A stretch of DNA of 64,000 bases from an uncultured Holophagaceae bacterium (GCA_903913215.1 CAIWKE010000013.1:1-64000), one strand, 5' to 3'. Shown: positions 1-22,667, counted from the stretch's first letter. Numbers and translations are program-made. The notes: generated by a model from the sequence alone, not told the origin.

Positions 1-138
1 ACCAAACAACAGGGCATGAATTGCTCGTGAGGCAGTCGAACTGCGGTCGGGCTACGCCCTCCCTGCGTCCGACTGCCTCAAATCTGGGGGGTCAGGAGTT
101 TTGTCGCGAAGAGGGGTCAATAGTTTTGTCGGTTGACA
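1..138. mobile_element. Possible terminal remnant of an IS21-like insertion sequence
   Basis: Two 19-bp near-identical direct repeats, GGGGTCAGGAGTTTTGTCG at 87-105 and GGGGTCAATAGTTTTGTCG at 113-131, lie 26 bp apart. The second runs into GTTGACA, ending at 138. Read on the other strand, the end is TGTCAACCGACAAAA, which starts with TGT and is followed by a second internal copy. Multiple terminal repeats of this kind are typical of IS21-family ends. Left of them is a 10-bp inverted repeat (29-38 with 70-79) that could be the terminator of a gene lying off the window. No transposase is visible, so the family assignment rests on the terminal architecture only. Confidence 0.4.
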
Positions 139-334
139 GGGCTAAATCCTGGTCCATTCCGGATCACTTAGACTGAGCCCAGAGGCACCACTCAAATCAA
201 CCGTGGTTCTCCTGAATGACTGGGCAATACCAATATAAATAACCTCACACCAAGGCCCGAGCCCCCGGCAAGTTGCGGCGGATTTCATAATCCGTGATGG
301 GAATGGCTCCTGAGAATTCTGGCCGCCCCTTCAC
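139..334. other. Intergenic, no gene seen
   Basis: No convincing coding frame, RNA or repeat is visible between the IS-like end and the small CoiA-like gene. Confidence 0.5.
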
Positions 335-652
335 TCAAGCTTCCGATAGCCCAGCAGGGAAAGTCTTGAGGCGCATGGCTCCGGCATGACCCTCGAGTTC
401 CAGCCACTTGCTTGAGCGATTGAAGAAGCTTCCACCTTGGACACTCGCATCAGCCGGTGCAGACCGGAGTTCGCAATCGAATCCCTTGGGGTCGTAGGGT
501 GCATGAGCAAAGTGAGGGATGTTTACATTCCCACGCCTAAAGGTAGCCTTGGCCCCACACTCCATACAGAAATAGGTCGTCCAACGCGTCTGCGTGGGAG
601 TGCCTTCCACTCTGACCAAAACGCCTCGAACCAAGTAACATGCGTGCTTCAT
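335..652 (-). CDS. Small CoiA-like zinc-binding N-terminal domain protein
   Basis: A protein of 105 residues. Near the N-terminus it has a CxxC knuckle (FCMECGAKATFRRG) followed by PHFAHAP. This Cys-Cys ... His-Phe-xx-His pattern is the N-terminal zinc-ribbon signature of competence CoiA-like and related nuclease-associated proteins. Those proteins normally continue into a PD-(D/E)XK nuclease, which is absent here, so this is either a stand-alone zinc domain or a truncated remnant. I chose the ATG at 652; a TTG at 673 would add seven residues. Neither has a clear ribosome binding site. It lies in the island cargo next to nuclease-helicase genes. The family resemblance is from motif reading only. 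Confidence 0.45.
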   Translation of the reverse strand: MKHACYLVRGVLVRVEGTPTQTRWTTYFCMECGAKATFRRGNVNIPHFAHAPYDPKGFDCELRSAPADASVQGGSFFNRSSKWLELEGHAGAMRLKTFPAGLSEA

Positions 653-673
653 AGTTCGTAAATTTCTAAACAA

Positions 674-1155
674 ATAGCCAGCCAGTTCTCAAATTTCCTT
701 TCATTCAGTTAAAATCGCATGCTGATTCCTGGATAACTAGAATTCGAGGTATGGGTTAGTCCAACCATTGATTGCTGATTCTCATTGGTCTATTTGAATT
801 TCATAATTGGACGAAATCCGAGCTTCTGGTGCTAAATTTCTTTCTTCTCAAAGCTTTTGAGACCAGTTGCTATTCGCCAGTATTTTTCCATTCTGTCAAG
901 TTGTCTTTCATGAAAAAAATAAGCTTTATTACTAGTGTTTGCTTCAACCAGATGGAGCGATCACCTTCTAAGAACACCCTTTTTTGATGTGTAAGAATAT
1001 TTCAGAGACTAGAGTAACCATGGTTTCTGTATATTCAGTTCCAAGGAAATAGAAAACAATTTGAGACATACATATATGATTCTTGTTTGGATTATAATCC
1101 CAATCTAGTGCACACTTCCTGTAGGCGTCCGTATCATGCATATTAGGATGGCAAC
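674..1155. other. AT-rich intergenic region
   Basis: This stretch is clearly more AT-rich than the rest of the window. Short frames on both strands have low-complexity hydrophobic translations with no recognisable domain. I see no tRNA, repeat array or strong hairpin. The composition fits recently acquired or degraded DNA. Confidence 0.5.
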
Positions 1156-1359
1156 ATGACATCTGAAGGCATTGATCCAACTAGATTCAATCGTACGAAT
1201 GGCTTCGATTCTTCGGACAAATTTGCTGACATTACGAATCCTGAGGAAATTCACCGCCCGCCGGAATTTAGCGCCCCATGCCCATTCGAAGATGAGGAGT
1301 TCCTGCTTTATCTTGAGGATTTAGCTGATGGCATGAGCCTAGCCGACGCTGGCCCATGA
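1156..1359 (+). CDS. Small acidic hypothetical protein
   Basis: A frame of 67 residues starting at an ATG with an AGGATGG stretch seven bases upstream as a possible ribosome binding site. The translation is acidic, with an EDEEF run near residue 50, and ends shortly before the 3' end of the large helicase gene on the opposite strand. I recognise no family. It may be real because of the start context and the amino-acid composition, but a random short frame is not excluded. Confidence 0.3.
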   Translation: MTSEGIDPTRFNRTNGFDSSDKFADITNPEEIHRPPEFSAPCPFEDEEFLLYLEDLADGMSLADAGP

Positions 1360-1408
1360 ACCAATGCTCCGGGGAACCAGTCGCCGGGACGATTCTAGGC
1401 GGTCCGGC

Positions 1409-4400
1409 TTAGATATCAGAACTAATGGCCTCATCAATTCGATTTAATACATCGAAGGGGGTCTCCATCACCTCGCGTCCCCCGAATCTGAGCACCTTGT
1501 AACCCTGTCCCAGTAGGTAGGTATCCCTGGACTTGTCCTGAACCTGCGTATTTTGATGAAATTCTCGCCCATCCACCTCAAGAACGAGGCGCCGCCCCAT
1601 CGCACTCTTCAGGATGAAGTCCACTTCAAGGTCCCCAACTCGGGGATGGACCTGGGGCTCCCATCCCTTCAAAACGAGCCAGCTGAACAACTCCAGCTCT
1701 GCTGGGCTCGTGTCCCTTAAGACTTGGATCTCTTTGCAGTAGACCGCAAGTTTGTGGAGGGTGCCCTTCTGCATCCTGCAATAGTCCAAGTCCGCCACAA
1801 CATAGAGCACCTCTCGCGCCCGTGTTAGCGCAACATTGATGAGATTTGGTGGTGATTCGACCCACCTCGCCGCTGACTCATCTATGCCCCTGGCCACAAC
1901 AGGGCTGAAAATAATTACATCTCTCTCATCGCCCTGGAACCCGTTTGCGGTGTCCACTAAGATTTCGGATGCTTGGCCTATTTTATCGAGTTCCTCCCGC
2001 AACCATTCCTTCTGACCACGGAAGGGGGTCACGATTCCGATTTCAATGGAGCGATCGCCGGAGGCCCTCAGCGTGTTTACTACGCTGAGGACCTCCCTTC
2101 CTTCCTGCTCGTTGAACCAACTTCCGTTTCGGCCCCGCCTTCGCGCACTGCCCGCCACCTGGACCGGGTGGATACCACTTCCCACGGGAAGGCGGTTCTG
2201 CAACTGAGGGTCCTTCTTGAGTTCCAATCGCTGGTTATAGATGTAACGATTGGAGAACCCAATGATCTGCGGATGGCTTCGAAAGTGCTCCTCCAACATG
2301 ATCACATCGGCCCGTCTCCTAGGGAGAGCCTCCGTTGCAGTGTTATAAACATTGTTCTTAGCGTGTCCGATCACGTTTAGGTAAGGCTCCACATCATGCT
2401 TACGGGCCAGTATTAATTCCTCTGCCTCGCGGATCGTGGGGATTGCAGGCAACTGGTTGTCGTCCCCGATGACGGTCAGGCTTCGCCCCCGATACATCAA
2501 GGGCAAGAGGTTAGTGAGCGTGCACTGGGAGGCCTCATCTATAACAACGATGTCGAAGAGCTCCGGCAGCATAGGAATGGCCTGGGCTGCTTGGGCGGTC
2601 GTGATCCAAATCGGTACTAGTCGCAGTGCCCTCCTGAAGAGCCCGTAGTCCGCAGGTGCAACCTCGGGTCTCCGCTGGAGGGATTTCTCCAAGGCGTCCA
2701 CAGCTTGAATTGCCTCGGTATCCACCTTTAGTCGTGAGCGCCACCTCTCCTTTGCCTCATGGAATGAAGTGCGCTCCAGTTCCGCATCGATCTGTTCGAC
2801 CCGCCCCCGGATTCGCTCCGCGCTGAAGACCGTAAAGACATGGTTGAGGTCCTCTGTGGGCCAGTCTTTGTCCGGACTTTCCAAGATTCCCTCTGCCATC
2901 CTGACGGCTTCTGCCTTTCCCTGGGTCTCAGGTAGGAGATCGATGGCGATGTGCAGGTTCTCCGTGGCCCAATTTAGCTCCCGAGTTAGTTCACGCTGTA
3001 GGATGGGTAGATCCACCTCGTGGAAATGGGACCACCGTGAGATCCAATCCAGGACTTGGTCCAGGAAGGTCTGCCCCCCCTCAAGTGACGGCCATCCGCC
3101 GAGCGTCGCAGGGACACGGACCATTGAGTCCTGTGGTTGCAGCGCACGCCACCCTTGTACACGGTCTGCGAGGGTTGGGATTTCCCCCTGCCTGCGGTGG
3201 AGGTCCATCACAGTCAATTGATGGGCCCTGGTCATGCTCCAGGCTTCGAGCAACTCGGTCAGTTCGCCCGAATAGAGATACTTCCTAGCCAAACCCAAGG
3301 TCTCTGATCCTGGAAAATCTGCAAGTTGCTGGAGGGATGTTTCGAAACCCTTGCCACGGCCTTTTCTCCAAGCCTCTCTGATAGGGATGCCGCCGGCAAA
3401 ATGCAGCCACTCCTGAGCAATGCAACTAATCGCCTGCTCCGTGGCCTCCTTCTCACAGCGACGCCGCCAAGCATGAGCGGCCTGCTCGGACACCCTCCAC
3501 TGTCTGCCGAGTTGACTAGCGATGGAGGCCCAGGCCTCCGGCTCAAACCCATGTGGGGCCGGCCCGACCTTCAGCAGGCTACATCGATGGCGTAAATGCC
3601 CAAGTTCATGCTCAAGGTTTTCCCTTAATGGCCGGGCCCCTTCCAATTCTCCGCACAGCCCCCCCCACTCGACTAGGCAGGACAAAATGGGACGCAGGCG
3701 TTGGTGAAGGTCTTGGCTCAGCGGACCCAGGTCCGCGAGCACCTCCAGCGGGAGATGGGGGCGAATTGAGTGGAAGTCGCTGTTGAGGGCCCGACCAAGG
3801 CGCGCCCTGCGTGACCAGGGGAGGAAATCCAATCGACCTTCCTCCAGAGTGAGCCATTCTCCGAAATGACAAGACCAACTAGTTACAGCGTCCATGGGGG
3901 GCTGGACCGATTCCATGAGCCCAAGAGCGAGCAGTTTTTGTTTACATGCCGCATGGGTGGCATCCAATTGATCCAGCTTCTTCGCCTTGGGAAAGGAGTC
4001 TGCCCTCAATCGTTCGATGGCTTCAATAACAGCCCTCGCCTGCTCTCCATATGCAATAGCCGTCTCTTCTGAGCCCCAGTCATCGAAGGCAGCATCCCAA
4101 GTAATGGCCTCCAAGATTGGGTCCAGATTAGATGTGATAAAGGACCGGTAACGTTGTTCCCAGTCCATGCCCTGAGCCGGATTTGGCCCATTCACCAACC
4201 ACAGCCAGTCCCCCGCCTGATCAGGATCCAGTCCCACCTTTCTTGCTTGCAGGTTCCTGCCTTGCTCAGCCTCACCTTGCTTCGACCTCATTTCCGCGCA
4301 GAGACGTGAATCCTCCTCCGCCTGGGCCTTGGCCTTATCGATGGAATCAAGCCATTCCTTGGTCTCATGGAAGCGGTTCCCGAGGGTCGAAGCTGTCAAA

Positions 4401-5761
4401 CCTGGAAACCCGAGCTGTTTCTGCTCCTCAATCAACTGGGCGATCTTCTCGTCCCGCTCCTGGCTTTTACCGTGAAAAGCACTATAGGCGGTCAGGGCCG
4501 CCTTCCGGGCCTCGCCAATTCGCTGGGGGATGTGGCTGTCCAGGTTGACTTGGAGCTTTTGTTTCTCCTCCAGCAGTTTCCCGCGTGCCGTGGATGCGGT
4601 CGTTCCATCTCCCGCTGCATCGGCATCCTTAGCCCCCGCAATGTTCAAGGTCCTGCGGAGAACATCTGCAATGTTTTGCCGGTTTCTTGCACCGGCGCGC
4701 ACAGCAATGGGAAACTGCGATTCAAACTTCTCCACCCGCTCGCGGACCACGTCTACGGCCTTGTTGTTGTTGCTAGCGAACAGGACACTCTTTCCCTGGG
4801 CCCATGCGTTCAGTAGCAGGGACACTACGATCTGGCTCTTTCCTGTTCCGGGAGGGCCGCTGATGACAGTCAGGGGCTGCTGGTCCAGAATCCGCTGGAC
4901 GGCCTCCTTCTGGACCCTGTTCAGGGGGACAAGGGGTAGCAGTTCTGATGACTCAGGAGGATCCCCGGGCTGTGGATCCTCTAGGAGCCTCAGCCCCCCG
5001 AGACCCTCCCGGTCCCTGGCTAGGTTCGCCTCCAGTTGCTCGTAATCCTTTAACAAGTAGCGGGTCAGAGCAGAGAACTGTTGAGTCGGCTTGAACAGCA
5101 TCCATGGTGTGGGAAGGATCTTAAAGATATTTGTGTTGGGGCAGTTCTTACTTAATTCCGCCTCGAGGGCGGGAAACTTTGAGGCCATTACTTCCAGGAT
5201 GGCCTCGTGCATGGCCCGTCCGGTGGAATTGGCGCGACTGGTGGCCGCTTCGATCAATTGAGATGCCAACTCCTCCAACTGACAGTCGGGATCCAACTCA
5301 AATCGGGTGAATTGGCTAAGCACCAATGGGGAAAGATTCCATTTCCCCTGGACTGGCGTCAATTCTAGACCACCACTGACGTTAAGACAGGCCACCTCTC
5401 GATATAGGATGGGGCACCACTGAGGATCCGAGGTGTTGTTCGCGCCCTTTGACCATTTCATGTAGCCGGGCCCCCCAAGGAACAGGCTCTCGGCCTGCCC
5501 CTGCTCTAGGGCAAGACGGAACGGCTTGCTTTGCAGAGCCTCGACGGGAATTACCCAGGGACCCGCCAGCCTACTAGGCGTAAAGGTCTGTAGACTCGAC
5601 CAACGGTCGGATTGATCATCCTTCCCGTTAAGTGCGAAAAATCCCTCCTCGGCCCGAGTGACGATTTCCTTGTGGAACCTAACGATTTGAAGCCAGGGCA
5701 ATTCTCTGCGGCGATGGGTGCCTGGTTGGGGGGATAGGCTTTTCACGGTCATGGGCAGCAT
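1409..5761 (-). CDS. Giant SF1 (Upf1/COG1112-like) helicase with C-terminal Vsr/DUF559-like nuclease
   Basis: A protein of 1450 residues. The first ~280 residues have no motif I recognise. Walker A (SGPPGTGKS) lies near residue 301 and motif Ia (SNNNKAVDVV) near 330. A helical, coiled-coil-rich insertion of about 650 residues follows. The second helicase half has DEASQ near 1073, GDDNQLPA near 1099, a FRSHP motif, GFQGDERDV near 1275 and NVALTRARE near 1310. The last ~100 residues contain DLEVDFIL and LVLEVDGREFH, then a VLRFGG end. This is the D...ExD pattern of Vsr/DUF559 (MTES_1575-like) endonucleases. The family is expected to translocate on nucleic acid and cut it. The architecture resembles the Hhe (DUF4011-helicase-Vsr) defence gene, but I cannot see a DUF4011 N-terminus. 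It is transcribed divergently from a second helicase-nuclease, with 342 bp between them. The ATG at 5761 and a second ATG four codons in are both possible starts. Confidence 0.85.
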   Translation of the reverse strand: MLPMTVKSLSPQPGTHRRRELPWLQIVRFHKEIVTRAEEGFFALNGKDDQSDRWSSLQTFTPSRLAGPWVIPVEALQSKPFRLALEQGQAESLFLGGPGYMKWSKGANNTSDPQWCPILYREVACLNVSGGLELTPVQGKWNLSPLVLSQFTRFELDPDCQLEELASQLIEAATSRANSTGRAMHEAILEVMASKFPALEAELSKNCPNTNIFKILPTPWMLFKPTQQFSALTRYLLKDYEQLEANLARDREGLGGLRLLEDPQPGDPPESSELLPLVPLNRVQKEAVQRILDQQPLTVISGPPGTGKSQIVVSLLLNAWAQGKSVLFASNNNKAVDVVRERVEKFESQFPIAVRAGARNRQNIADVLRRTLNIAGAKDADAAGDGTTASTARGKLLEEKQKLQVNLDSHIPQRIGEARKAALTAYSAFHGKSQERDEKIAQLIEEQKQLGFPGLTASTLGNRFHETKEWLDSIDKAKAQAEEDSRLCAEMRSKQGEAEQGRNLQARKVGLDPDQAGDWLWLVNGPNPAQGMDWEQRYRSFITSNLDPILEAITWDAAFDDWGSEETAIAYGEQARAVIEAIERLRADSFPKAKKLDQLDATHAACKQKLLALGLMESVQPPMDAVTSWSCHFGEWLTLEEGRLDFLPWSRRARLGRALNSDFHSIRPHLPLEVLADLGPLSQDLHQRLRPILSCLVEWGGLCGELEGARPLRENLEHELGHLRHRCSLLKVGPAPHGFEPEAWASIASQLGRQWRVSEQAAHAWRRRCEKEATEQAISCIAQEWLHFAGGIPIREAWRKGRGKGFETSLQQLADFPGSETLGLARKYLYSGELTELLEAWSMTRAHQLTVMDLHRRQGEIPTLADRVQGWRALQPQDSMVRVPATLGGWPSLEGGQTFLDQVLDWISRWSHFHEVDLPILQRELTRELNWATENLHIAIDLLPETQGKAEAVRMAEGILESPDKDWPTEDLNHVFTVFSAERIRGRVEQIDAELERTSFHEAKERWRSRLKVDTEAIQAVDALEKSLQRRPEVAPADYGLFRRALRLVPIWITTAQAAQAIPMLPELFDIVVIDEASQCTLTNLLPLMYRGRSLTVIGDDNQLPAIPTIREAEELILARKHDVEPYLNVIGHAKNNVYNTATEALPRRRADVIMLEEHFRSHPQIIGFSNRYIYNQRLELKKDPQLQNRLPVGSGIHPVQVAGSARRRGRNGSWFNEQEGREVLSVVNTLRASGDRSIEIGIVTPFRGQKEWLREELDKIGQASEILVDTANGFQGDERDVIIFSPVVARGIDESAARWVESPPNLINVALTRAREVLYVVADLDYCRMQKGTLHKLAVYCKEIQVLRDTSPAELELFSWLVLKGWEPQVHPRVGDLEVDFILKSAMGRRLVLEVDGREFHQNTQVQDKSRDTYLLGQGYKVLRFGGREVMETPFDVLNRIDEAISSDI

Positions 5762-6103
5762 CCAGTGAACCCCGAATCGGCATCATGTCCCCGTTGTCAG
5801 ATACTGGTGGGTTCCAACATTCCTACGAGCACCGAACCTGGAGACGTTAAAAGGATAGTGATTACCTACACCATTGCAGCATGCATAAAACGCGGGCAAC
5901 TCAACACCATAATGAGCAGGCTACCGAAAATTTTTGCGACAAAAATCAAATCTACCAAAATCAAGAGACACCAACCAGTGCAAGTCGTAATATTTTTCTG
6001 TTTATGGAATTTTTTCATATGGATATAGTTTACAAAGTCCTTTCGAGATCCAAATGTTTTCCGCAAAACTGGACAGCGCGCTTACCGCGCATCAGGTGAG
6101 TCT
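5762..6103. other. Divergent promoter region between the two helicase-nuclease genes
   Basis: This 342-bp spacer separates two head-to-head genes and contains an AT-rich core at about 5,870-6,060. Both promoters must lie here or be absent. I could not assign specific -35/-10 pairs with confidence. An AGGTGAG ribosome binding site sits just before the rightward gene. Confidence 0.5.
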
Positions 6104-9100
6104 ATGCAACTGAAACTCGAACAAGACTGGAATGAACTGGCTGGGGCCCACTCCAAGGAAAGCCCGGTCAACCTTGTTCCCCGGATGAGGACCCTCCTGG
6201 AAGTGGCGCTAAAGGACCACTACAGGACGAGTGGCGTGGAGTGGCCGCAAGATCTCGCATCCGCCATCTCAAAGTTCATCGAAGGGAATGGCCTGGACCG
6301 AAATCTGAGGTTCTCCCTTCATGAGATCCGGGTGAAAGCGAACCAGGTCCTCCACGAGGGATTCAGGCCTGTGGCAGGGGACGTCAGGAAGGGCCTACAC
6401 ACTCTAAAATCGTTGCTCAGGATTACACACGGCCTCACCCTTGCCATGCCGGTTCCAGCCTCGCCCTCAGCCTCGGCCTCAGAGCATACCGACAACCCGA
6501 CCCCGGCATCGCCCGAAGGCGGAACTCGAACAGAAGATTTCCCAAGGCCTTCTGAAATACTCGAGGCCTCACCTCCTGGAGGAAGGGTTGAAAGGCTCGT
6601 CCGGCTAATGGGCCTCGACCTGCCGGGAGGGGTGCTGGTAGTCCAGGAGATCCAGAAGGATGGGGCGCCCGGTGGGCCCTCAGTCCAGGTGAAGCCGAGC
6701 CCCAGATTCACGGATCTTCTCATCCCAGAGATGATGTACAGGCTTGTCAACTTGATCGACGAGACCATTGATGAGAATGGAATTTCTCATCCCAGGCTGA
6801 TCGTCCTTGAGCCCGACTATCTGGTCAATGTAACCCAGGTGTCGGAATGCCTCCAGAACAGTGGCCCGCAACCGTTTGTGGCCCTACTGGAGGCCTTTGT
6901 GCCACGGGAATCATCTCGAGCCCAGTTCCTAGGCAATATTGTCAACCACCTCTTGGACCGAGAAATTGAGGCTGCAGCCCATAATCTAAATTTTGACTTG
7001 GATGAATTCATCAGAAACGATCTCTTCCAACTCGATCCCCTAATCTGGTCCACCCTCCAAGAATTCCAACAGCCGGATGGCCCTCGTGAGCTAATCGGGG
7101 AGCTCCGGAAGCACCACGCCACCATCCATCACGCGCGAAAACAAGGGTTCATCACCCAGGATCCCAGGTATTCCCAAAGGCCAAGAATTGACCACAGGGC
7201 TGCTTCCCTGGAACCGTCGTTCCTTTCCGCCAGGTACGGGCTGCAGGGACGTCTCGACCTGCTTCACCAGTCTCTTGATGGGTATGATGTCGTCGAATTG
7301 AAAAGCGCCAAGAGTTTCCCGGGCTATTCACGAAAGGTGTGGGGTAACCACGAGGCCCAGGGCCTGCTCTATCGCCTCCTATTAGAAAGGGCGGCCCCCA
7401 CAAAGCAAGCGAGCAGTGGCCAGATCAGCATCCTCTACTCAGCAGCGAAACCCGATGAAGCCCCTCTCAGGCATGTTCTCACGGTGCCCGATACCATTGA
7501 GAAAGTAGTGTCGACCAGGAACAGGATCGTATTAACCGAACTCCTGATTGGGGAGAGTCCAAGCCCCTCCAGGACCCATGCCCTCCTCGAGCCAATCATG
7601 GAAGGGAAGGACAACCTGGGGCTCAAAGGATTCCTTACAAGTCATTCCCAGTGGGTCGCCTCTGCATGGCTTGGTGCTGACCCAGTGGAGTCCGCCTGGG
7701 CCCATGAATACACGCGATTCATAGCCAAGGAGATGAGACTCAGCCTATTGGGTAGGCCGGAAGCGCTAGGCGCACCCGGCAACCAAGCTTCTACATGGCG
7801 AGCACCCGACCGGGCGAAAAAGGTCGCCGGGACTCTTTTGGATGACATGACGGCAGACCCCCGAGATCCAAAAGCCCCATCCAAGTTGAAACTGCGATAC
7901 TCGGCACCCATCGATGGCGTGGAGGATGGCGGAGCCAACTTCCGTGAGGGCGATTCCTTGCTCCTCTACCCTCGTCGGAGGAAAGGGGCAATTGCAACGA
8001 CCAAACTTGGCGCGCTAGAAAGCCAGGTACTCAAAGTGAGCCTGGAATCCTTCCAAGAAGATGGGGTGACCGTCAACTTCATAAACCGGCTGGTCTCTCC
8101 CTCCTTCTTTGAGGACCACGATCTGTGGGCTCTTGAGCCCTCTATCTACGACAACTCCCGCCAGGAATGGGCAGGGCTTTCAGCTATCCTGGCCCTCCCC
8201 GAGGACCAACGGAGGCTCCTTCTGGGCCGGACCCCACCCCTACGTCCCCTGGTGGAGACTCCAAACGACCTAGATCCTGTGGACGCGGCCCTTGCGGCAC
8301 CGAACTATTTCCTTCTATGCGGTCCTCCGGGGACCGGAAAGACGTCAAATGCTCTCAAGCGAATGGTGGAGGAATTGGTCAAGTCTGGAAAGACACTCCT
8401 CCTAGCAGCCTATACGCGTCGGGCTGTGGACGAGATCTGCGCGACTCTGGAGGGCCTGGGTGGGGGTTCACAGTTCGACTACCTGAGACTGACCGCACCG
8501 CTTTACACTGATCCGGCCTACCATGGGCATCTTCTGGACAACCGCCTCGCGGGATGCAAAAGCCGTAAGCAAGTGCGAGACCAGATTCAACAATGCCGTA
8601 TCTTCGTAGGGACTGTTGCCGGTCTGATTCGGAATACAGAACTCTTTCAGTTAAAGGAGTTCGATGTGGCCATAATCGACGAAGCCTCTCAGATCCTGGA
8701 AGTCCCGACCCTCATGCTCGTGAGCAAGGTCAGAAAGTTCATCCTGATCGGCGACCATAAGCAGTTGCCTGCTGTCGTTCAGCAGAACCGGGAGGAAAGC
8801 ACGGTTTCACCCGAGGTAGCCGACCTCATGGGTAGAGAACTTGGTCTGTTTAATTTGCGCAACTCCTACTTCGAGCGGATATATGGCCTCGCACAGGCAA
8901 ACTGGCCGTGGGCTTGCGGCACATTGAAGATTCAGTACCGCATGCACCAGGATATTCTCGAGTTGGTCAACCACCGATACTATGACGGTGTCCTGAGTTG
9001 TGGACAGGACCGGCAACTCCGGGAGGATTTGGGACGCGACCTCTGGCCTGCGTCACGGAGCAAACTAGGTGATTGGATCCGGAAACGGCGAGTGATGTTC

Positions 9101-9613
9101 TTCTCTGCCGAGCGGAGCGGTGAGGATGTCTCATCCAAGGAAAATCATCAGGAAGCGCGTCTTGCGGTCAAGTTCATCATGGAACTCGCCGAGGGATATG
9201 GGTCAACGTTTGATCCGGCGCGCACGGTGGGTGTCATTGCCAGTTACCGGAATCAGGTGGCTCTCATCCGCCGAAATTTGGAGCACTTGGCCGCGGAGCA
9301 TAATATTCCGGGTCTGACCAAGATCACTGTTGACACGGTTGAGAGATTTCAGGGTTCTCAGCGTGATGTGATCATTTACTCCTTTTGCTGCGCCTTTGAT
9401 TGGCAGTTGGAGCAACTGGTGGCCGAATCCGTAGGTTCTGTCGATGGCAAGTCGGTGGACCGGAAACTGAATGTTGCCCTCACCCGTGCCCGGGAGCAGT
9501 TGATCCTGATTGGTGATCCGAAGGTACTAGGAAAGGCCTCTGGATATGCAGGGATCCTAGCTGATATCCGGGCCAAAGGAGGCATGCCGGAGGCAGCGGA
9601 AAACAATTTCTGA
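6104..9613 (+). CDS. HEPN-like/DUF4145 + PD-(D/E)XK nuclease + SF1 helicase fusion (Dna2-like layout)
   Basis: A protein of 1169 residues. Residues ~1-115 resemble DUF4145/HEPN-type helical domains, with a RMRTLLEVALKD helix and IRVKANQVLHEG. A low-complexity Pro/Ser/Ala linker follows. A nuclease region has FLGNIVNHLLDRE near 274, GLQGRLDLL near 378, VVELKSAKS near 395 and an AQGLLY helix near 416. Together these give the H, D, ExK and QxxxY elements of Cas4/RecB/Dna2-type nucleases; I see no iron-sulfur cysteine cluster. The helicase has GPPGTGKT near 741, DEASQ near 859, GDHKQLPA near 882, QYRMH near 943, RFQGSQRDV near 1080 and NVALTRARE near 1122. A nuclease preceding a UvrD/Upf1-class helicase is the order seen in Dna2. 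It starts at an ATG with an AGGTGAG site and shares a divergent promoter region with the other helicase. A role in anti-invader DNA processing is inferred. Confidence 0.85.
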   Translation: MQLKLEQDWNELAGAHSKESPVNLVPRMRTLLEVALKDHYRTSGVEWPQDLASAISKFIEGNGLDRNLRFSLHEIRVKANQVLHEGFRPVAGDVRKGLHTLKSLLRITHGLTLAMPVPASPSASASEHTDNPTPASPEGGTRTEDFPRPSEILEASPPGGRVERLVRLMGLDLPGGVLVVQEIQKDGAPGGPSVQVKPSPRFTDLLIPEMMYRLVNLIDETIDENGISHPRLIVLEPDYLVNVTQVSECLQNSGPQPFVALLEAFVPRESSRAQFLGNIVNHLLDREIEAAAHNLNFDLDEFIRNDLFQLDPLIWSTLQEFQQPDGPRELIGELRKHHATIHHARKQGFITQDPRYSQRPRIDHRAASLEPSFLSARYGLQGRLDLLHQSLDGYDVVELKSAKSFPGYSRKVWGNHEAQGLLYRLLLERAAPTKQASSGQISILYSAAKPDEAPLRHVLTVPDTIEKVVSTRNRIVLTELLIGESPSPSRTHALLEPIMEGKDNLGLKGFLTSHSQWVASAWLGADPVESAWAHEYTRFIAKEMRLSLLGRPEALGAPGNQASTWRAPDRAKKVAGTLLDDMTADPRDPKAPSKLKLRYSAPIDGVEDGGANFREGDSLLLYPRRRKGAIATTKLGALESQVLKVSLESFQEDGVTVNFINRLVSPSFFEDHDLWALEPSIYDNSRQEWAGLSAILALPEDQRRLLLGRTPPLRPLVETPNDLDPVDAALAAPNYFLLCGPPGTGKTSNALKRMVEELVKSGKTLLLAAYTRRAVDEICATLEGLGGGSQFDYLRLTAPLYTDPAYHGHLLDNRLAGCKSRKQVRDQIQQCRIFVGTVAGLIRNTELFQLKEFDVAIIDEASQILEVPTLMLVSKVRKFILIGDHKQLPAVVQQNREESTVSPEVADLMGRELGLFNLRNSYFERIYGLAQANWPWACGTLKIQYRMHQDILELVNHRYYDGVLSCGQDRQLREDLGRDLWPASRSKLGDWIRKRRVMFFSAERSGEDVSSKENHQEARLAVKFIMELAEGYGSTFDPARTVGVIASYRNQVALIRRNLEHLAAEHNIPGLTKITVDTVERFQGSQRDVIIYSFCCAFDWQLEQLVAESVGSVDGKSVDRKLNVALTRAREQLILIGDPKVLGKASGYAGILADIRAKGGMPEAAENNF

Positions 9614-9783
9614 TCGAAGACCTTTCTACCATGGCAGGCCTTAGTTAAGTAGTTCACCAATTAACCAGATTAGATACGAACTACCCACCCTTGGTTCAGT
9701 GCGAGGGGCCTACCGGGGCCCCTCTAAAGGCCGAGACCTTTGCCAAGGCGTTAGGGTTGCACAACCAGATCAAATGGACTCAC
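9614..9783. other. Short intergenic leader of the exonuclease gene
   Basis: 170 bp lie between the helicase stop and the preferred ExoI start. The ExoI frame stays open back to a TTG at 9691, but that extension lacks family similarity and is probably untranslated. No terminator is obvious, so read-through from the helicase gene is possible. Confidence 0.4.
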
Positions 9784-11226
9784 ATGACTCCCACTTTCTA
9801 TTGGCACGACTACGAGACCTTTGGTGTGAATCCCCAGGTCGATCGCCCCGCCCAGTTCGCAGGGTTGCGGACCGACATGGATCTTAATCCGGTTGGGGAA
9901 CCACTTGACCTGTTCTGCAAGATGGCTCCGGATTACCTACCCAACCCTGAGGCCTGCAACATTACAGAAATTTGGCCAACCCAGTTACAAGCTCAAGGGA
10001 TCTGTGAATCAGATTTTATCGGCCGTATCCATGCAGAACTCATTACGCCTGGGACCTGCACGGTGGGATACAACAACTTACGTTTTGACGATGAGCTAAC
10101 ACGCGCGACCCTATTTCGAAACTTGCTCGACCCATACATGCGGGAATACGCCAACGGCAATAGCCGTTGGGATCTCATCGATGTACTCCGACTTGCCCGA
10201 GCCTTCCGTCCAGAGGGATTAGAATGGCCTTTGGATGCGAACGGGCAGGCCACTTTCAAACTTGAATACTTGACCCGAGCCAACGATATCCCACACGCCG
10301 AGGCACATTCGGCCTTGGCAGATGTGAGGGCCACGGTAGCCCTTGCTCGGAAGCTGAAGGATGCCCAGCCCCGCCTTTGGGACTTTGCTCTTAAGACCCG
10401 GAGCAAGCGATGGGTGCTGCAAGAGCTGAACCCAGGCCACCCTCAGCCAATCCTTCATGTGTCCAGCCTGTTCAAAGCCTCCCTCGGATGCTTTTCTCTG
10501 GTGTGGCCTTTGGGTATGCACCCTTCCCGCCAGAACGAAGTTCTTGTCTGGGATTTGAGGCACAGCCCAGCACCATTTATGGACCTCGACCAAGACGAAT
10601 TACGCTGTCGAATTTTCGCAACAGGGGAGGACCTCGAGACTCGCGGCATGATGCGGGTGCCCGTAAAATCTATCCACGCGAATCGGTGTCCGATCGTGAC
10701 GCGGGAATTACGCCTCTTAACGCCGGAGATAGCAGAACGCTATGAAATCGCGGTAGGCGAAGCATTGAGATGGAGCGCCGAGTTGCAACAGAACTCTGCG
10801 TTTCTTGAGCGATTACGTGAGGCATATTTCTCCGAATTCCTACCACGGAGCAATGACCCGGACTTTTCCCTATATGGCGGAGCATTTCTATCGGACCATG
10901 ACCGACAACTGCTCGGGAAGGTCCATCAAACTGGCCAGGCAGAGCTTGGGTCACTGGATCTGCCCTTCCAGGACAGCCGCCTCTCAGAGCTTCTGTTTCG
11001 CTACCGCGCCCGGAACTGGCCTCAGAGTCTCGGTCCAAATGATCGAATTCGATGGGGGGCTCACTGCCGTGAACGATGGGACAATCCACCGCATCCAAAG
11101 CTTCTATCCTTAGCCCAATTCTGGGACCTGCTGGCTCGGTGCAGGACTGAACACCCTGAAAAGGCCGAAGGATGGCGAGATCTTGAGGCCTGGGTCGACA
11201 CCACTCAAGGCTCACACCAGACCTGA
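9784..11226 (+). CDS. sbcB: Exodeoxyribonuclease I (SbcB/ExoI)
   Basis: A 3'-5' single-strand DNA exonuclease of the DEDDh class. The start at 9784 (MTPTFYWHDYETFG) gives 480 residues, matching the usual ~475 and aligning directly with the E. coli N-terminus. Visible catalytic elements are Asp/Glu in HDYETFG, Asp in NNLRFDDE, and His/Asp in AHSALADVRAT. DRPAQFAGLRTD and NSRWDLIDVLRLARAFRPEG are family hallmarks. The C-terminal SH3-like and helical parts appear full length. It is co-directional with the upstream helicase-nuclease. ExoI is best known from Proteobacteria, so its presence inside a tRNA-borne island points to transfer. It may provide end-trimming for the neighbouring helicase-nucleases or be an independent recombination enzyme. 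Confidence 0.92.
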   Translation: MTPTFYWHDYETFGVNPQVDRPAQFAGLRTDMDLNPVGEPLDLFCKMAPDYLPNPEACNITEIWPTQLQAQGICESDFIGRIHAELITPGTCTVGYNNLRFDDELTRATLFRNLLDPYMREYANGNSRWDLIDVLRLARAFRPEGLEWPLDANGQATFKLEYLTRANDIPHAEAHSALADVRATVALARKLKDAQPRLWDFALKTRSKRWVLQELNPGHPQPILHVSSLFKASLGCFSLVWPLGMHPSRQNEVLVWDLRHSPAPFMDLDQDELRCRIFATGEDLETRGMMRVPVKSIHANRCPIVTRELRLLTPEIAERYEIAVGEALRWSAELQQNSAFLERLREAYFSEFLPRSNDPDFSLYGGAFLSDHDRQLLGKVHQTGQAELGSLDLPFQDSRLSELLFRYRARNWPQSLGPNDRIRWGAHCRERWDNPPHPKLLSLAQFWDLLARCRTEHPEKAEGWRDLEAWVDTTQGSHQT

Positions 11227-11939
11227 TCTCCGAGATCGCCTGCTAGATTTGGAGAGATGGCGCCCAATATGGCTCCTTGAAATTCCGTCCTATTAGGTTT
11301 GATTTTCAAGGTAGGAAAGCACCAGTGCGTTGAAACCTTGGCAGTTACAACTGAGCCCCCGGCAACTCCCTACCCGGCCCTTACTGCGATTGTTAGATAG
11401 CTGCCGCCGACAAGGATTTGCCTCTTAGGCTGCCCCTGATCCCAGTCAACTTGGCAATCGGGGTCAGGTCAATTCATTTGGCAGAGGTTTCCCTGACGTC
11501 CTCATCACACCTAAACCCAAGGATGGTAAGAGTTTTGGGTCTATTCTCTTAGCTTTCAGGGCTTCCTGACGGACCCATAGAAGGTAGTCACGAAGGCCAC
11601 ACCGAACCTCGGAGCACCGGTCTGGGGTAGACCCCGCCTGCGAGGGACCTTCTGAAGAGCCTGGTGAGGCAATTCGCTGATCCCTGATCAGGCTAAATGT
11701 CATTGACAGACTGTCACCCTGAGCCGAGGCTGACGTTCCCCCATGATTAGCCTGGTCTTTCGGTGGAATCAGGGATAAGGGTCATCCAGTAGAAATGGCA
11801 TTGCCCCATGCATCGAAGGATTCATTCATCATCGAGCCAGCCATTGCCGCCGCCCCTCCAGACCCTGCATCTTAGGTGGCCTCTGATTTGACCCGCCTTG
11901 GCAATTGGTGTCAGGGCCCCTGACCCGTTGGGTTCGACC
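11227..11939. other. Intergenic region with paired repeats and palindromes
   Basis: No convincing long gene lies here. Two 18-bp direct repeats, TTGGCAATCGGGGTCAGG (11451-11468) and TTGGCAATTGGTGTCAGG (11898-11915), match at 16 positions and bracket about 430 bp. The second runs into the palindrome GTCAGGGCCCCTGAC (about 11910-11924), which could end transcription of the leftward VIT-vWA gene, although no T-run follows. A perfect TGACAG-A-CTGTCA palindrome lies at 11704-11716. Confidence 0.5.
11464..11703 (-). CDS. Doubtful small hypothetical frame
   Basis: A frame of 79 residues with a basic, helix-like C-terminal half (LRDYLLWVRQEALKAKRIDP). No ribosome binding site precedes the ATG; instead the palindrome TGACAGACTGTCA directly abuts the start codon. 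It could be a leaderless small gene under an operator, a gene remnant, or chance. Confidence 0.2.
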   Translation of the reverse strand: MTFSLIRDQRIASPGSSEGPSQAGSTPDRCSEVRCGLRDYLLWVRQEALKAKRIDPKLLPSLGLGVMRTSGKPLPNELT

Positions 11940-14501
11940 TCATGGGGCTTCCCAGAAACGCCTTCCGGCCCCCACTGGCGCTTCGGACCTGGGAGCTTCC
12001 AGGAGCCACTGGTGGAGGTCTGCACACACGCTCGCCGCCTCCTCAGCCAACTCCAGCCAGGGATCTGGGGTGACCAACCGGTTCGGCTTCATCCGGTCCA
12101 TGCGCCGACTCAGGTCCAGGAAGGCGTCGAGGGCCGGACTGCCGCTCGAGCGGTTTTTCAGAAGCCATCTGAACAGGCCGCCCATGTGCCTCCTCAGGTC
12201 CAGGAATGCCTGAGAACTGGGACGCTCCTTGCAGCGTTCCGCCAGGTTCACGAGCGCCAATAGGTGAGCTAAAACCTGGCCAAGGGATGCGCCATTGAAG
12301 TTGTCCAGTAGATCCCCGGCGACCTGCAGAGCCTCCGTGTTCCGAGTCACAGCAGGCGATGGCATGGCTGGACTGGGAGAAGGAGCCTCCGACTCCGCCA
12401 GGCCCTCGTTTTCCAAGCAACCCAGATCGAATTCCACGCCAAGATCTTCTTCAACACTGTCATCGAGTCCAGGGTCAGCAGAACTCAGGCCACCGCGGAT
12501 CGAATAGCAGACATTCAAGGAGTCTTCCTCGAATGTCCCGCCCAGAGGCTTAGAACATCGCATAACCGATGGCAAGCAAAGATTCGATACACCACGACTC
12601 ATGGCGCTCACATCCGGCCCGTCCTCCTCATCCTCCACCGGTTGTATCAGCGGAACCGGCCGCCCCCCCAGGTTGACGGGACCGCGTTCATCCACGGCCA
12701 GGAAGGCTGTATTCCTGCAGAGCACGCCGTGGGCCAGGCTCACCCCGATGATGTCGCTCGCATTCTTCTGGGCGTCCTCCATATCCCGCATTTTCCATCG
12801 GGCCCATACCCGCCGGACACCGGTGCTGTCAGCGCTGTGGGTGGCTAGGCGGACCTGGAAGGGGGCCCGGCCCTCCCCCTCTCCTTCCCCTTCAAGGCTC
12901 ACCGTGGCCAGGGCTCTGGAGGACCAGGATCTGCCCAGCAGGATCAACGGCGTACCCGCATAGAGATCCATGCTTCCACTCGAGACGATGTGCTGGGGGA
13001 AGAGGCCTGGGGCCTTGAGCTGAAGTCCGGTCACCAGGGGCCGTCCAAAGGCCCGGGCCGCTTCAACCAGCATGCCATCCAGGACCCGGTCCGATTCCGC
13101 CGCCATGAACCACCCCTTGGAGACCGTGGCCATCCTCTGAAGCAGGCTGTCGTTTGCGCTGTCCCCGATACCAATAATCTGGAACCGGCATCCGACATGC
13201 TGTTTCTGGGCCTCCTGAACCATCCGTCCCTCGTTCCCGACCTGCCCATCGGTCACCAGGAAGAGGATCTTTTCCCGCTGATCCGCCCCCCCCGCGAGAG
13301 CCTTCAGGGCCATCTTGATGGGGGATAGCATCTGGGTGCCGCCATCGGCTTCAACCTTGGCCAGAAATTCGGCGGCCTTGAAGCGGTTCGGGTCCGTCGC
13401 GGCCACCAGACCCCTGGCCCACAGGCCCATGGTCTCGATGCCCGTGTCAAAGGCAATGATGCCAAAGCGGTCCTCGGGTCCGAGTGTATCTACCATGCGG
13501 GCCATGGCCCGGCGGGCCGCCGTGATCTTCCAACCAGCCATGCTGCCGGAGCGGTCCAGCACGAAGACCACATCCTTGGCGGTCTGCCGACTCCGGTCGG
13601 GCTGGGGGGGAAGCAATGTCACCATCAGGGTGGCATCGCCCACCTCCCGCTCAGGCACGGGGTTCTCGGTATCGGGGATGAGCACTGCCGAGCACTGCAG
13701 TGCACCCCCAGGAAGTCGGAAGCGCAGCACGAAGTCCAGGTTGAGCCGCTCCTCGTAGGCTAGGCGGATGCGCCGCAGGGGACTTCCCTCTTCCCGCTCG
13801 ATGTCCACGGCATGGAGGGTCGAACAAAGGTCCGTAAATCCGAGCCCGCAGGGGTCCAGTTCCACCTCGATGCCCAGGTGCACGGGATTCGGGAAGCCCT
13901 TCAGCAGGACCGGTGGGTTGAGGCGGGAGGCGTCCGGCACCTCATCCGTGTCCAGATCCACGCCAAGTCCTGCAGCTTCGACCTCCAGCGGCGTTCCCGG
14001 GATGTAGCGGGGAGCCACAACCAGGGGGAAGCGCCACTCAGCCTGATCGCCATTGAGGGTCAGGATCCCGTTGAGGCGGAAGGAGACCTCCGCACAGTCG
14101 CCGGGCATGAGGTTCCCCACGGAGAGGGTGAATACGTTGGGACGGTCCTCCTCAGCCAGAGAGGCTCGCTTACCCGCTGCCAGGGCCTGTTGGTAGCCCC
14201 GGCGGGCTGCCCCGCGCTCCTTCAGTTCCCCAATCACGAGGTGGTTCCCAACCTTCATGGAGAACCCACTCACGGCCGCTCGCGGGGGCAGCGGGAAGAT
14301 GTAGACCGCCTCGATAGGTTCAGCGTGGGTGTTCACGAAGGTTTGCACCACATCCAGGTCATAGAGCAGCCCCGTGATCCGTGCCTTCACGTCCATGGCC
14401 TTCAGGGGTAAGGGGCCCTTCATGGTCTCCAGGGCGCCAAATCCCGCCTCGATCTCGGGGGACCAGTTCGAATCATCAATGCGGGGGAGAACGCCTGTCA
14501 T
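11940..14501 (-). CDS. VIT and von Willebrand factor A domain protein
   Basis: A protein of 853 residues. An N-terminal VIT (vault/inter-alpha-trypsin) domain covers about residues 15-170, with AVYIFPLPPRAAVSGF and ARRGYQQALAAGKRASL as recognisable stretches. A vWA domain with a complete metal-ion-dependent adhesion site (DRSGSM, a GGT loop, TDGQVGNEG) covers about 300-480. The C-terminal third is variable and acidic, then helical. No signal peptide is visible, so it is probably cytoplasmic and protein-binding. I chose the ATG at 14501 because AAGGAG lies upstream and VIT homology begins right after it; the frame stays open upstream but overlaps the MerR gene. It follows the MerR gene by 19 bp and is surely co-transcribed. 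The function is unknown. Confidence 0.85.
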   Translation of the reverse strand: MTGVLPRIDDSNWSPEIEAGFGALETMKGPLPLKAMDVKARITGLLYDLDVVQTFVNTHAEPIEAVYIFPLPPRAAVSGFSMKVGNHLVIGELKERGAARRGYQQALAAGKRASLAEEDRPNVFTLSVGNLMPGDCAEVSFRLNGILTLNGDQAEWRFPLVVAPRYIPGTPLEVEAAGLGVDLDTDEVPDASRLNPPVLLKGFPNPVHLGIEVELDPCGLGFTDLCSTLHAVDIEREEGSPLRRIRLAYEERLNLDFVLRFRLPGGALQCSAVLIPDTENPVPEREVGDATLMVTLLPPQPDRSRQTAKDVVFVLDRSGSMAGWKITAARRAMARMVDTLGPEDRFGIIAFDTGIETMGLWARGLVAATDPNRFKAAEFLAKVEADGGTQMLSPIKMALKALAGGADQREKILFLVTDGQVGNEGRMVQEAQKQHVGCRFQIIGIGDSANDSLLQRMATVSKGWFMAAESDRVLDGMLVEAARAFGRPLVTGLQLKAPGLFPQHIVSSGSMDLYAGTPLILLGRSWSSRALATVSLEGEGEGEGRAPFQVRLATHSADSTGVRRVWARWKMRDMEDAQKNASDIIGVSLAHGVLCRNTAFLAVDERGPVNLGGRPVPLIQPVEDEEDGPDVSAMSRGVSNLCLPSVMRCSKPLGGTFEEDSLNVCYSIRGGLSSADPGLDDSVEEDLGVEFDLGCLENEGLAESEAPSPSPAMPSPAVTRNTEALQVAGDLLDNFNGASLGQVLAHLLALVNLAERCKERPSSQAFLDLRRHMGGLFRWLLKNRSSGSPALDAFLDLSRRMDRMKPNRLVTPDPWLELAEEAASVCADLHQWLLEAPRSEAPVGAGRRFWEAP

Positions 14502-14520
14502 TGCCTGCTCCTTGGCTGCT

Positions 14521-15138
14521 TCATTCTTTCGGGTCGATGAGCCCCTGCCGCCGCAGTTCGGCCAGCAGGGGAGAGGAGGCTTGTAGGACATCCAGTAGAC
14601 CTTCGGCACTTCCGCCAAGGGGCACTGGGAGCATCAGAACCACACCGGAGCCCAGGTTGATCCAGGAACCTGTGGACGCCGATCCCTCTCTGCGGGCAGG
14701 GGTCCGGGGAAGTGATCTGGCCTCCAAGCGGGTGGGGCGTTCCTGGTGGAGGGTTTCCACCGTGCGCGCCAGAACGGACAACTCGGGCAGTTCTACCGGC
14801 AACTGGGCCAGCCGCTCCAACTCGGCTGGCGTCAAGCCGGCCAGTTGGACCTGGACCTCCGACAAAGGGAGCCCTCCGGCCTGAAGCCGCTTGATGGCCA
14901 CGATCTGGGCCAGGTGGTGGCGTTGGTAGAGCGCCGTCCGTCCCCGGAAGGCCGCGGGTCGGGAGAGCAGGCCCAGGGTCGTGTAGTAGCGCAGGGTCCT
15001 CTCGTCGGGAGTAGAGCGGATGCGGCCGCTTTCAGAGGTGACCCCGGCCATTTCCAGGACCCGCTCGGCCATGGAGCACAGTTGCTCAAGCGTCCATTGG
15101 GGCGACTTGGGACTGGGAGTGCGGACGGGGGGGGGCAT
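14521..15138 (-). CDS. MerR-family transcriptional regulator
   Basis: A protein of 205 residues. A MerR-type winged helix occupies about residues 15-90: helix WTLEQLCSMAERVL, then TLRYYTTLGLLSRP with the family's RYY and G-L-L turn, then ALYQRHHLAQIVAIKRLQAGG. The C-terminal half lacks the cysteine cluster of metal-sensing MerR proteins and ends in a short domain of unknown ligand. It is the first gene of a two-gene operon with the VIT-vWA protein. Its promoter carries two near-identical palindromes between -35 and -10 with a short spacer, so autoregulation is likely, and the transcript may be leaderless. Confidence 0.85.
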   Translation of the reverse strand: MPPPVRTPSPKSPQWTLEQLCSMAERVLEMAGVTSESGRIRSTPDERTLRYYTTLGLLSRPAAFRGRTALYQRHHLAQIVAIKRLQAGGLPLSEVQVQLAGLTPAELERLAQLPVELPELSVLARTVETLHQERPTRLEARSLPRTPARREGSASTGSWINLGSGVVLMLPVPLGGSAEGLLDVLQASSPLLAELRRQGLIDPKE

Positions 15139-15236: not shown

Positions 15237-16157
15237 ATGACCCACCCGACCCCGCCTCCTCCTCGCTTCTTCATGGATTTCGAAACCACTGGCCTGAGTC
15301 CTGTCACGGCCTGCGTCATCGAGGTGGCCCTGCGGGGTTCGGCCCGGCTCGACCGCCTAGTCTCGGATGCCCCGCCCTCCTCTCCGGAAGCCCTTCGGGT
15401 GCATGGCCTTGCGCCATGGCTCTGCCAGCGGGACGGGCGGCCCTCTCGTGAAGTCCTAGCGGAATTAATCGCTGCGCTGGGCCCAGACCCAGTGGAGATC
15501 GTCGCCCACAACGCCACCTTCGAGCGGGGCTTCCTGGAGGCCTGGGCCTGGGGGGAGGGTCTGGTCCTGCCTGAGATCCTCTGGACCTGCACCCTGGATA
15601 ATTCGCGAAGCCTCATGCTTCGGGCTCCCATCAACCACCAACTCGGCTCCCTGGCCACCTCCCTGGGCTGGGACACGGCGGGTCTGCATCGAGCCGCCGC
15701 CGATACGGAACTGACCCTGCGCCTCGCGGAGGCCCAGGAGGCCTGGCGGGCCATTCAGGAGGCCCTTGGGTCCGTCCCCGGGGTGGTGTACCTGGCCGGC
15801 CCGCTGCGGGGCGACGGGTCCCCGGCAGCCATCGCGCACAACCGGGCCGCCATGGCCCGCCTCGCGGCGTGGGCCCAGGCTGTCCTACCGGCAGCCACCT
15901 TGGTGGTACCGCATCTGAACTTCGGGTTCCTGGATGAAAGCGGGGAGCGGGGCCTAATCCTTCGTGAACAGATCCTTGTCGCCTGCGAAAGCCTTTTGGC
16001 CCGTTGCGATGCGCTCATCCTCTGTGGCAACCCCACGGAAGGGATGCGACGGGAGCGGGAGTTGGCCGACACCCTGTGGATGCCCACCTTTTCGGTACCT
16101 GGCTGGGACGTTCCGACTGAGGAAGTTGCGCCCATGGCTGCGGCGCGGGCCGTCTAG
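15237..16157 (+). CDS. DnaQ-like DEDDh exonuclease fused to a nucleoside deoxyribosyltransferase-like domain
   Basis: A protein of 306 residues. Residues ~10-170 form a DEDDh exonuclease: MDFETTGLSP (motif I), HNATFERGFL (motif II) and HRAAADTELTLRL (motif III with His and Asp). Motif II has Glu where most relatives have Asp. From about residue 180, VVYLAGPLRGD, VVPHLNFGFLD and CGNPTEGMRRE match the DUF4406/DUF7768 branch of nucleoside 2-deoxyribosyltransferase-like folds, whose catalytic Glu follows a G-M-xx-E motif. A fusion of a nucleic-acid exonuclease with a nucleotide-hydrolase-like domain suggests trimming of DNA or RNA ends coupled to nucleotide processing; this is inference. It starts at an ATG after AAGGTTGAGG and is divergent from the MerR operon. 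Confidence 0.75.
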   Translation: MTHPTPPPPRFFMDFETTGLSPVTACVIEVALRGSARLDRLVSDAPPSSPEALRVHGLAPWLCQRDGRPSREVLAELIAALGPDPVEIVAHNATFERGFLEAWAWGEGLVLPEILWTCTLDNSRSLMLRAPINHQLGSLATSLGWDTAGLHRAAADTELTLRLAEAQEAWRAIQEALGSVPGVVYLAGPLRGDGSPAAIAHNRAAMARLAAWAQAVLPAATLVVPHLNFGFLDESGERGLILREQILVACESLLARCDALILCGNPTEGMRRERELADTLWMPTFSVPGWDVPTEEVAPMAAARAV

Positions 16158-18093: not shown

Positions 18094-18354
18094 ATGCCTC
18101 GATCTGACCGCAAGAAACGACCCACGGCTGCCATGCGCGCAGTGGTGAAAGCCATCATTGCCATGAAGGGTCGCGCCTCCAGATCCGTCAAGATTGCAGC
18201 CGACATGACCGGTCCGGCTGCAGACACCTGGCGGCGCCTCTATCAGGCCTCGAAGGGCCTGAATTTCGATGACTCCAGGTTGATAGCACTACTCATGATC
18301 TGTGGTGCCATCGCCGCCGAGAAGGCCCTCCTGGACATGCCCCGGGAGGGTTGA
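18094..18354 (+). CDS. Small basic protein, possible mobilisation accessory
   Basis: A protein of 86 residues with a basic N-terminus (MPRSDRKKRPTAAMRAVVKA) and a hydrophobic helix near the C-terminus (LIALLMICGAIAAEKALL). The ATG is preceded by AGGAGG. The stop codon lies one base before the relaxase start, so the two genes are almost certainly translationally coupled. I recognise no family; DNA binding at oriT, as done by relaxosome accessory proteins, is a guess from position and charge. Confidence 0.55.
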   Translation: MPRSDRKKRPTAAMRAVVKAIIAMKGRASRSVKIAADMTGPAADTWRRLYQASKGLNFDDSRLIALLMICGAIAAEKALLDMPREG

Positions 18355-18355
18355 G

Positions 18356-22621: not shown

Positions 22622-22667
22622 CCCTTTCACGGCGGTAACACGGGTTCAAATCCCGTTAGCCCTACCA
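22622..22667 (+). other. attR: tRNA-Glu(TTC) 3' half, right border of the island
   Basis: The sequence starts inside an anticodon loop (CTTTCAC, anticodon TTC) and continues with the GGCGG anticodon stem strand, a TAACA variable loop, a T-arm (ACGGG TTCAAAT CCCGT), an acceptor strand and CCA. Upstream, the D-arm and 5' acceptor strand are missing. The intact gene should lie at the left end of the element, outside the window. A strong terminator follows directly, showing that this is the original chromosomal 3' end. Confidence 0.85.

Follow-up and report, generated by a model that had tools for sequence, protein, structure and literature searches.

Candidate defence and DNA-repair genes carried together on a tRNA-Glu integrative element of a Holophagaceae bacterium

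Two large helicase-nuclease genes and a gene for exonuclease I lie together in a stretch of DNA from an uncultured Holophagaceae bacterium (64,000 nucleotides, hereafter the window). Do these three genes constitute one undescribed defence system, as a preliminary description of the locus had proposed, or were they brought together as cargo of a mobile element? We refer to them as gene A (1409-5761, minus strand; 1450 aa), gene B (6104-9613, plus strand; 1169 aa) and gene C (9784-11226, plus strand; 480 aa from the ATG at 9784), the stop codon being included in the ends given for A and B. The reading frames of A and B are intact, and the domains named in the preliminary description were all recovered: a helicase and a DUF559 nuclease in A, a DUF4145/HEPN match, a nuclease and a helicase in B, and exonuclease I in C.

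Gene A encodes a UPF1-like SF1 helicase core, whose AAA_11/AAA_12 halves (Pfam) are split by an insertion of ~700 aa. Its helicase motifs comprise a Walker A sequence, GPPGTGKS, at residue 302 and DEAS at residue 1075, together with GDDNQLP and LTRAR. The C-terminus (aa 1358-1446) is formed by a DUF559/Vsr-type PD-(D/E)XK nuclease (DUF559/MTES_1575 in Pfam) with an EVDF/EVDG motif. The helicase halves are similar to those of Hhe and ProA in the NCBIfam and PADLOC models, and Hhe likewise carries a Vsr-type nuclease at its C-terminus. The models, however, exceed the length of A by several hundred residues, and we assigned it to neither Hhe nor ProA: the model for Hhe (DUF4011-helicase-Vsr; NF042953) gave 81.5 bits against a cut-off of 2000, with no DUF4011 match in Pfam, and the NCBIfam model for ProA (NF058533) gave 115.9 bits against a cut-off of 1500. 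Mokosh systems combine a helicase with a serine/threonine kinase (type I) or a PLD domain (type II). Their UPF1-like helicases were the best PADLOC matches of both large proteins (A to MkoC, E = 8e-57; B to MkoA, E = 2e-53), but the matches to the Mko models were confined to their helicase portions and no kinase or phospholipase D (PLD) domain was found in Pfam, so that neither A nor B was taken for a Mokosh component. The full-length A family is named by none of the curated models used here.

In the type III-B CoCoNuT restriction systems, the helicase CnuH is UPF1-like and carries a directly fused Vsr nuclease (PMC11090510). By domain content, as judged from Pfam only, A has the same layout, with a Vsr-like PD-(D/E)XK nuclease fused directly to the C-terminus of the SF1 helicase. 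A might hence be the helicase of a CoCoNuT-like (McrBC) system whose McrB and McrC were lost or are encoded to the left, in the unsequenced portion of the element that carries the locus. A Rhizobium plasmid, on which a partial A relative is followed, after two intervening genes, by a gene for DUF2357 (the McrC N-terminal domain), points the same way, although the Rhizobium protein is like A only in its helicase and C-terminal parts. The large ORFs inspected in the window included no McrB-like GTPase and no McrC beside A, the left part of the element being outside the contig. None was found either among the examined neighbours of a full-length A relative in the genome G450; this relative lies in an operon resembling type III restriction-modification (RM) systems. 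We regard a CoCoNuT-like system of this kind, with McrB and McrC lost or unseen, as very improbable.

Full-length relatives of A were found in the genomes G393 (41% identity) and G450 (39%), and they align with A over all of its 1450 aa, the large insertion included; protein searches in 41 related genomes returned only partial helicase matches to A. The contig of the G393 relative stops ~300 bp past the gene. In the one genome G450, a UvrD-PDDEXK gene ends 38 bp upstream of the A relative, which in turn overlaps the beginning of a gene for an HTH/N6_N4, type III-like methyltransferase (E = 2e-150 to PADLOC MTase_III); a gene for a ResIII-like protein comes next (operon at L091 9563-19898 and L092 112-3795). 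The ResIII-like protein also has an S24 peptidase match. Since a relative of A is part of this RM-type operon, A is probably a restriction or antiphage helicase-nuclease, predicted to resemble CnuH of the type III-B CoCoNuTs.

Protein B consists of an N-terminal helical domain (aa 1-112), a RecB/Dna2-type PD-(D/E)XK nuclease (Dna2/PDDEXK_1 in Pfam) and an SF1 helicase (aa ~722-1155). The nuclease residues D385...E398-x-K400 are invariant in the full-length relatives of B, and the Walker A and DEAS motifs of the helicase are present. At the N-terminus, a match to DUF4145 fell just below the Pfam cut-off. The first 130 residues, modelled alone from a single sequence, formed a five-helix bundle (pLDDT 72), whose top structural matches were mostly HEPN proteins (best match with Z 12.7, a value near the helical-bundle background, rmsd 2.3 and 111 aligned residues). 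As helical bundles reach such Z values by chance and the model gave no match with E <0.001 in Foldseek, the HEPN fold is only suggestive. A larger single-sequence model covering 500 residues of B was too poor for use (pLDDT 38.6). The HEPN ribonuclease motif Rx4-6H was not found in B, R76-x7-H84 standing alone in that helix; the residue equivalent to His84 is Asn in two of the three full-length relatives, and the third has no His there. Given this lack of conservation, we rejected an active RNase in the HEPN-like domain.

The best solved-structure match of B was Dna2. Like eukaryotic Dna2 and the Bad enzyme of G. stearothermophilus (PMC7430649), B has a RecB-family nuclease followed by an SF1B helicase. 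In contrast to both, it carries the N-terminal HEPN-like domain and lacks the four iron-staple cysteines, C249 being its sole cysteine before residue 739, and it was thus rejected as a true iron-staple Dna2/Bad enzyme. The match to the NCBIfam PLuB model was far under the cut-off. In Geobacilli, the Bad gene adjoins a type III-like methyltransferase gene, and a restriction role was suggested for the enzyme (PMC7430649).

The full-length relatives of B are three Bacteroidales proteins from a plasmid collection (29-34% identity; annotated as 'AAA domain-containing protein', e.g. WP_306561234.1), which have the same nuclease and helicase motifs. Two of them are found in a tatC/murF setting, with murF-alr and GSCFA as common neighbours, and the third is located downstream of nrdA/nrdB-like genes. 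Unlike B, they are chromosome-like lone genes with neither A nor C nearby; the records are named plasmids and read like chromosome, and the genes look as though they had been kept vertically. The protein searches in the 41 related genomes gave no relative of B comparable to full length, phage records yielded only partial helicase matches to B, and scans of viral contigs gave nothing useful. Single-protein scans of whole-genome contigs with B and C, by a peptide-pattern method that reaches close relatives only, gave no relatives either. Within the phylum of the window genome, 940-aa relatives of the helicase part of B were observed in G061, where the gene is directly beside a UvrD-type helicase gene, and, as a similar gene, in G074 (L052 7630-13641; L051 733-3552).

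Gene C, judged by its sequence, is a standard SbcB. It matches the NCBIfam exonuclease I model NF008746 with E = 5e-168 (559.5 bits against a cut-off of 260), and both Pfam domains, DEDDh exonuclease and Exonuc_X-T_C, are found, as in solved exonuclease I structures (PDB 4rg8, the closest to C, and 1fxx), together with the DEDDh-type motifs DYET, FDDE and HxALAD. What sets C apart from exonuclease I elsewhere is only its location, on a mobile element of a genus in which no other full gene was found. The start previously placed at TTG 9691 is less likely: it would add 31 residues that are missing from the closest relative, which begins at the Met equivalent to ATG 9784, and the latter is most likely the start codon. 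Among the congeners, a relative was found only in the element of G422, where a 626-bp DNA match was obtained; in this copy, the N-terminal exonuclease part is 72% identical to C and the sequence ends near residue 254. This truncated exonuclease I gene (L069 186-995, minus strand) is near an AddAB-like UvrD/PDDEXK pair. No relative of C comparable to full length was obtained in the protein searches of the 41 related genomes. With the other congeners lacking C, we rejected the possibility that it is a chromosomal housekeeping gene here.

B and C can be described as acquired end-processing enzymes, which may help to degrade foreign DNA or may serve repair. The Bacteroidales relatives of B beside housekeeping genes fit DNA repair as well as defence, and in this respect they speak against a defence reading. 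If B and C were DNA-repair or recombination genes serving the element or the host, through end resection and removal of 3' ssDNA, and only A were a defence gene, this would agree with the lone, syntenic and housekeeping-like occurrence of those B relatives, with C being a standard SbcB, and with the presence of AddAB-like pairs as cargo of sibling elements. Such a division of roles nevertheless appears unlikely to us, as both genes are carried by a mobile element together with cargo of the defence type, and exonucleases like SbcB also figure among defence-associated proteins (the PADLOC model RTasSbcB matches C with E = 1e-49, though any SbcB would be expected to match).

We then considered the three genes as a unit. 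A and B diverge from a 342-bp intergenic region (5762-6103), from which joint regulation had been proposed. The divergent arrangement and the size of the region are as described, but a consensus scan found no sigma-70-like promoter in it and so lends joint regulation of A and B no support. The gap between B and C is 170 bp. Two small neighbours were observed on the far side of A: a gene for a small protein (338-673, minus strand), which may be a remnant and matches the CoiA N-terminus (E = 2e-8) and, weakly, the first part of DruB (E = 2e-4), and a putative acidic ORF of 67 codons (1156-1359, plus strand), convergent with the end of A.

If the trio were a conserved system, the genes should be found together elsewhere, a test that the preliminary description itself had set. 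No such adjacency was seen in the sampled genomes of the genus, class and phylum or among the plasmid relatives, where A, B and C never occur together; coverage outside the phylum is thin, and a rare adjacency may exist there. Full-length A is present in G393 and G450, where searches for B found nothing beyond the helicase of the A relative itself; B occurs in Bacteroidales with neither A nor C, and the truncated C of G422 with neither A nor B. These separate occurrences, the divergence of B from A and the 170 bp between B and C argue against a single undescribed system in which paired divergent helicase-nucleases open and cut invading DNA while exonuclease I clears the 3' strands. We consider such a system improbable, even though the genes are tightly clustered, all intact and similarly low in GC3, their activities would be complementary, and the combination of A with another helicase-nuclease occurs twice, the G450 relative of A being paired with a UvrD-type helicase-PDDEXK nuclease. 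We give a similarly low probability to a looser version, in which A is an uncharacterised restriction-type effector partnered by another helicase-PD-(D/E)XK nuclease that can be exchanged (UvrD-type in G450, HEPN-Dna2-type here). Two motors would then destroy DNA together, a methyltransferase being present or not and exonuclease I serving as an accessory. Taken together, the trio looks like mixed defence and DNA-repair cargo assembled from known parts, and not like a proven three-part system.

The context of the trio is that of a mobile element. Downstream of C, a VIT-VWA protein gene (11940-14618, minus strand; GC3 0.75) separates the trio from the relaxase and backbone genes within the element, and it is followed by genes for a MerR-family regulator (14521-15138, minus strand), an RNase_T-type exonuclease/DUF7768 protein (15237-16157, plus strand; 69% identical to a relative in the G003 element), a TrwC-type relaxase (18302-20266, plus strand; relatives in the G003 and G422 elements, 67% and 53%) and a tyrosine integrase (21127-22464, minus strand; 85% identical in G003 and 61-67% in the G422, G022 and G017 elements). 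Next comes a 44-bp segment (22624-22667, plus strand) that duplicates the 3' end of tRNA-Glu(TTC) and is presumed to be the att site; the intact tRNA-Glu of the same genome is on contig C29 (2562-2636, minus strand). The integrase, the relaxase and this second copy of a tRNA 3' end together identify an integrative mobilizable element; we infer that the first 22.6 kb of the window form its right part, the left junction being on another contig. The island described earlier is thus real, but the integrase said to adjoin it is not an immediate neighbour of the trio: it is ~10 kb from C, with the VIT-VWA, MerR, RNase_T and relaxase genes intervening. The window begins at base 1 of contig C13, within a repeat (1-139) where the contig breaks. 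As this repeat, probably the end of an insertion sequence, is also present at two other contig ends of the genome, the linkage of C13 to other contigs is ambiguous. No methyltransferase or self-protection gene was found in the visible part of the element; with C13 ending at base 1, such a gene could lie unseen.

A, B and C were horizontally acquired. Their GC3 values (0.65, 0.64 and 0.59) are below those of the other genes of the element (0.72-0.80) and of a core gene (0.82). In the congeners and the class as sampled, protein searches found nothing comparable to A or B, while C is represented by a fragment in one congener, and the genes are without a housekeeping distribution in this lineage. 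A DNA search of positions 1-11230 of the window against 47 congeners returned, besides the end repeat, only the 626-bp match to C in G422.

The same tRNA-Glu copy is occupied in congeners G003, G422, G022 and G017 by elements with the same integrase type (61-85% identity). Their cargo includes a type I RM system and a PADLOC PDC-S06 ATPase in G017, a NERD-UvrD helicase (PADLOC C3a187) in G003, and UvrD/PDDEXK AddAB-like pairs in G422 and G022, as well as in G021, where a C5 methylase is also carried. Several congeners were thus observed to use this site (L069-L074) for related integrative elements with RM, NERD-UvrD, AddAB-like and methylase cargo. A mobile, horizontally acquired and defence-rich setting, as the preliminary description had it, is borne out by the RM and candidate defence genes of these elements and by the RM-type operon around the A relative.

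We favour, at somewhat better than even odds (roughly 55%), the reading that a tRNA-Glu integrative mobilizable element carries the locus as a segment of foreign cargo, made up of DNA-unwinding and DNA-degrading enzymes from separate sources that probably protect the element or its host against invading DNA, and not as a conserved three-gene system. Under this cargo reading, A would be a restriction-type effector: its SF1B motor, running 5'-3', would engage foreign DNA that contains ssDNA or is unmodified, and the Vsr-like nuclease fused to it would make the cut. B would work in the manner of Dna2 or AddB: it would load at ss-ds junctions, translocate 5'-3' and cleave the 5' strand, so that 3' ssDNA remains for C to digest. 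B and C, or all three proteins if they cooperate, would then degrade linear DNA completely. The polarities and substrates assumed for A and B follow family knowledge and the Bad enzyme (PMC7430649); the antiphage role and any cooperation among the three proteins are likewise inferred.

The elements described here mark tRNA-Glu as a mobile-element hotspot within one bacterial genus, with cargo that repeatedly consists of DNA-processing and restriction machinery. The strongest surprise is the A family, with its occurrence in an RM-type operon and its possible pairing, at two loci, with interchangeable helicase-nucleases. If A needs a second helicase-nuclease as a partner, a two-motor DNA-destroying design would be added to the known helicase-based defences.
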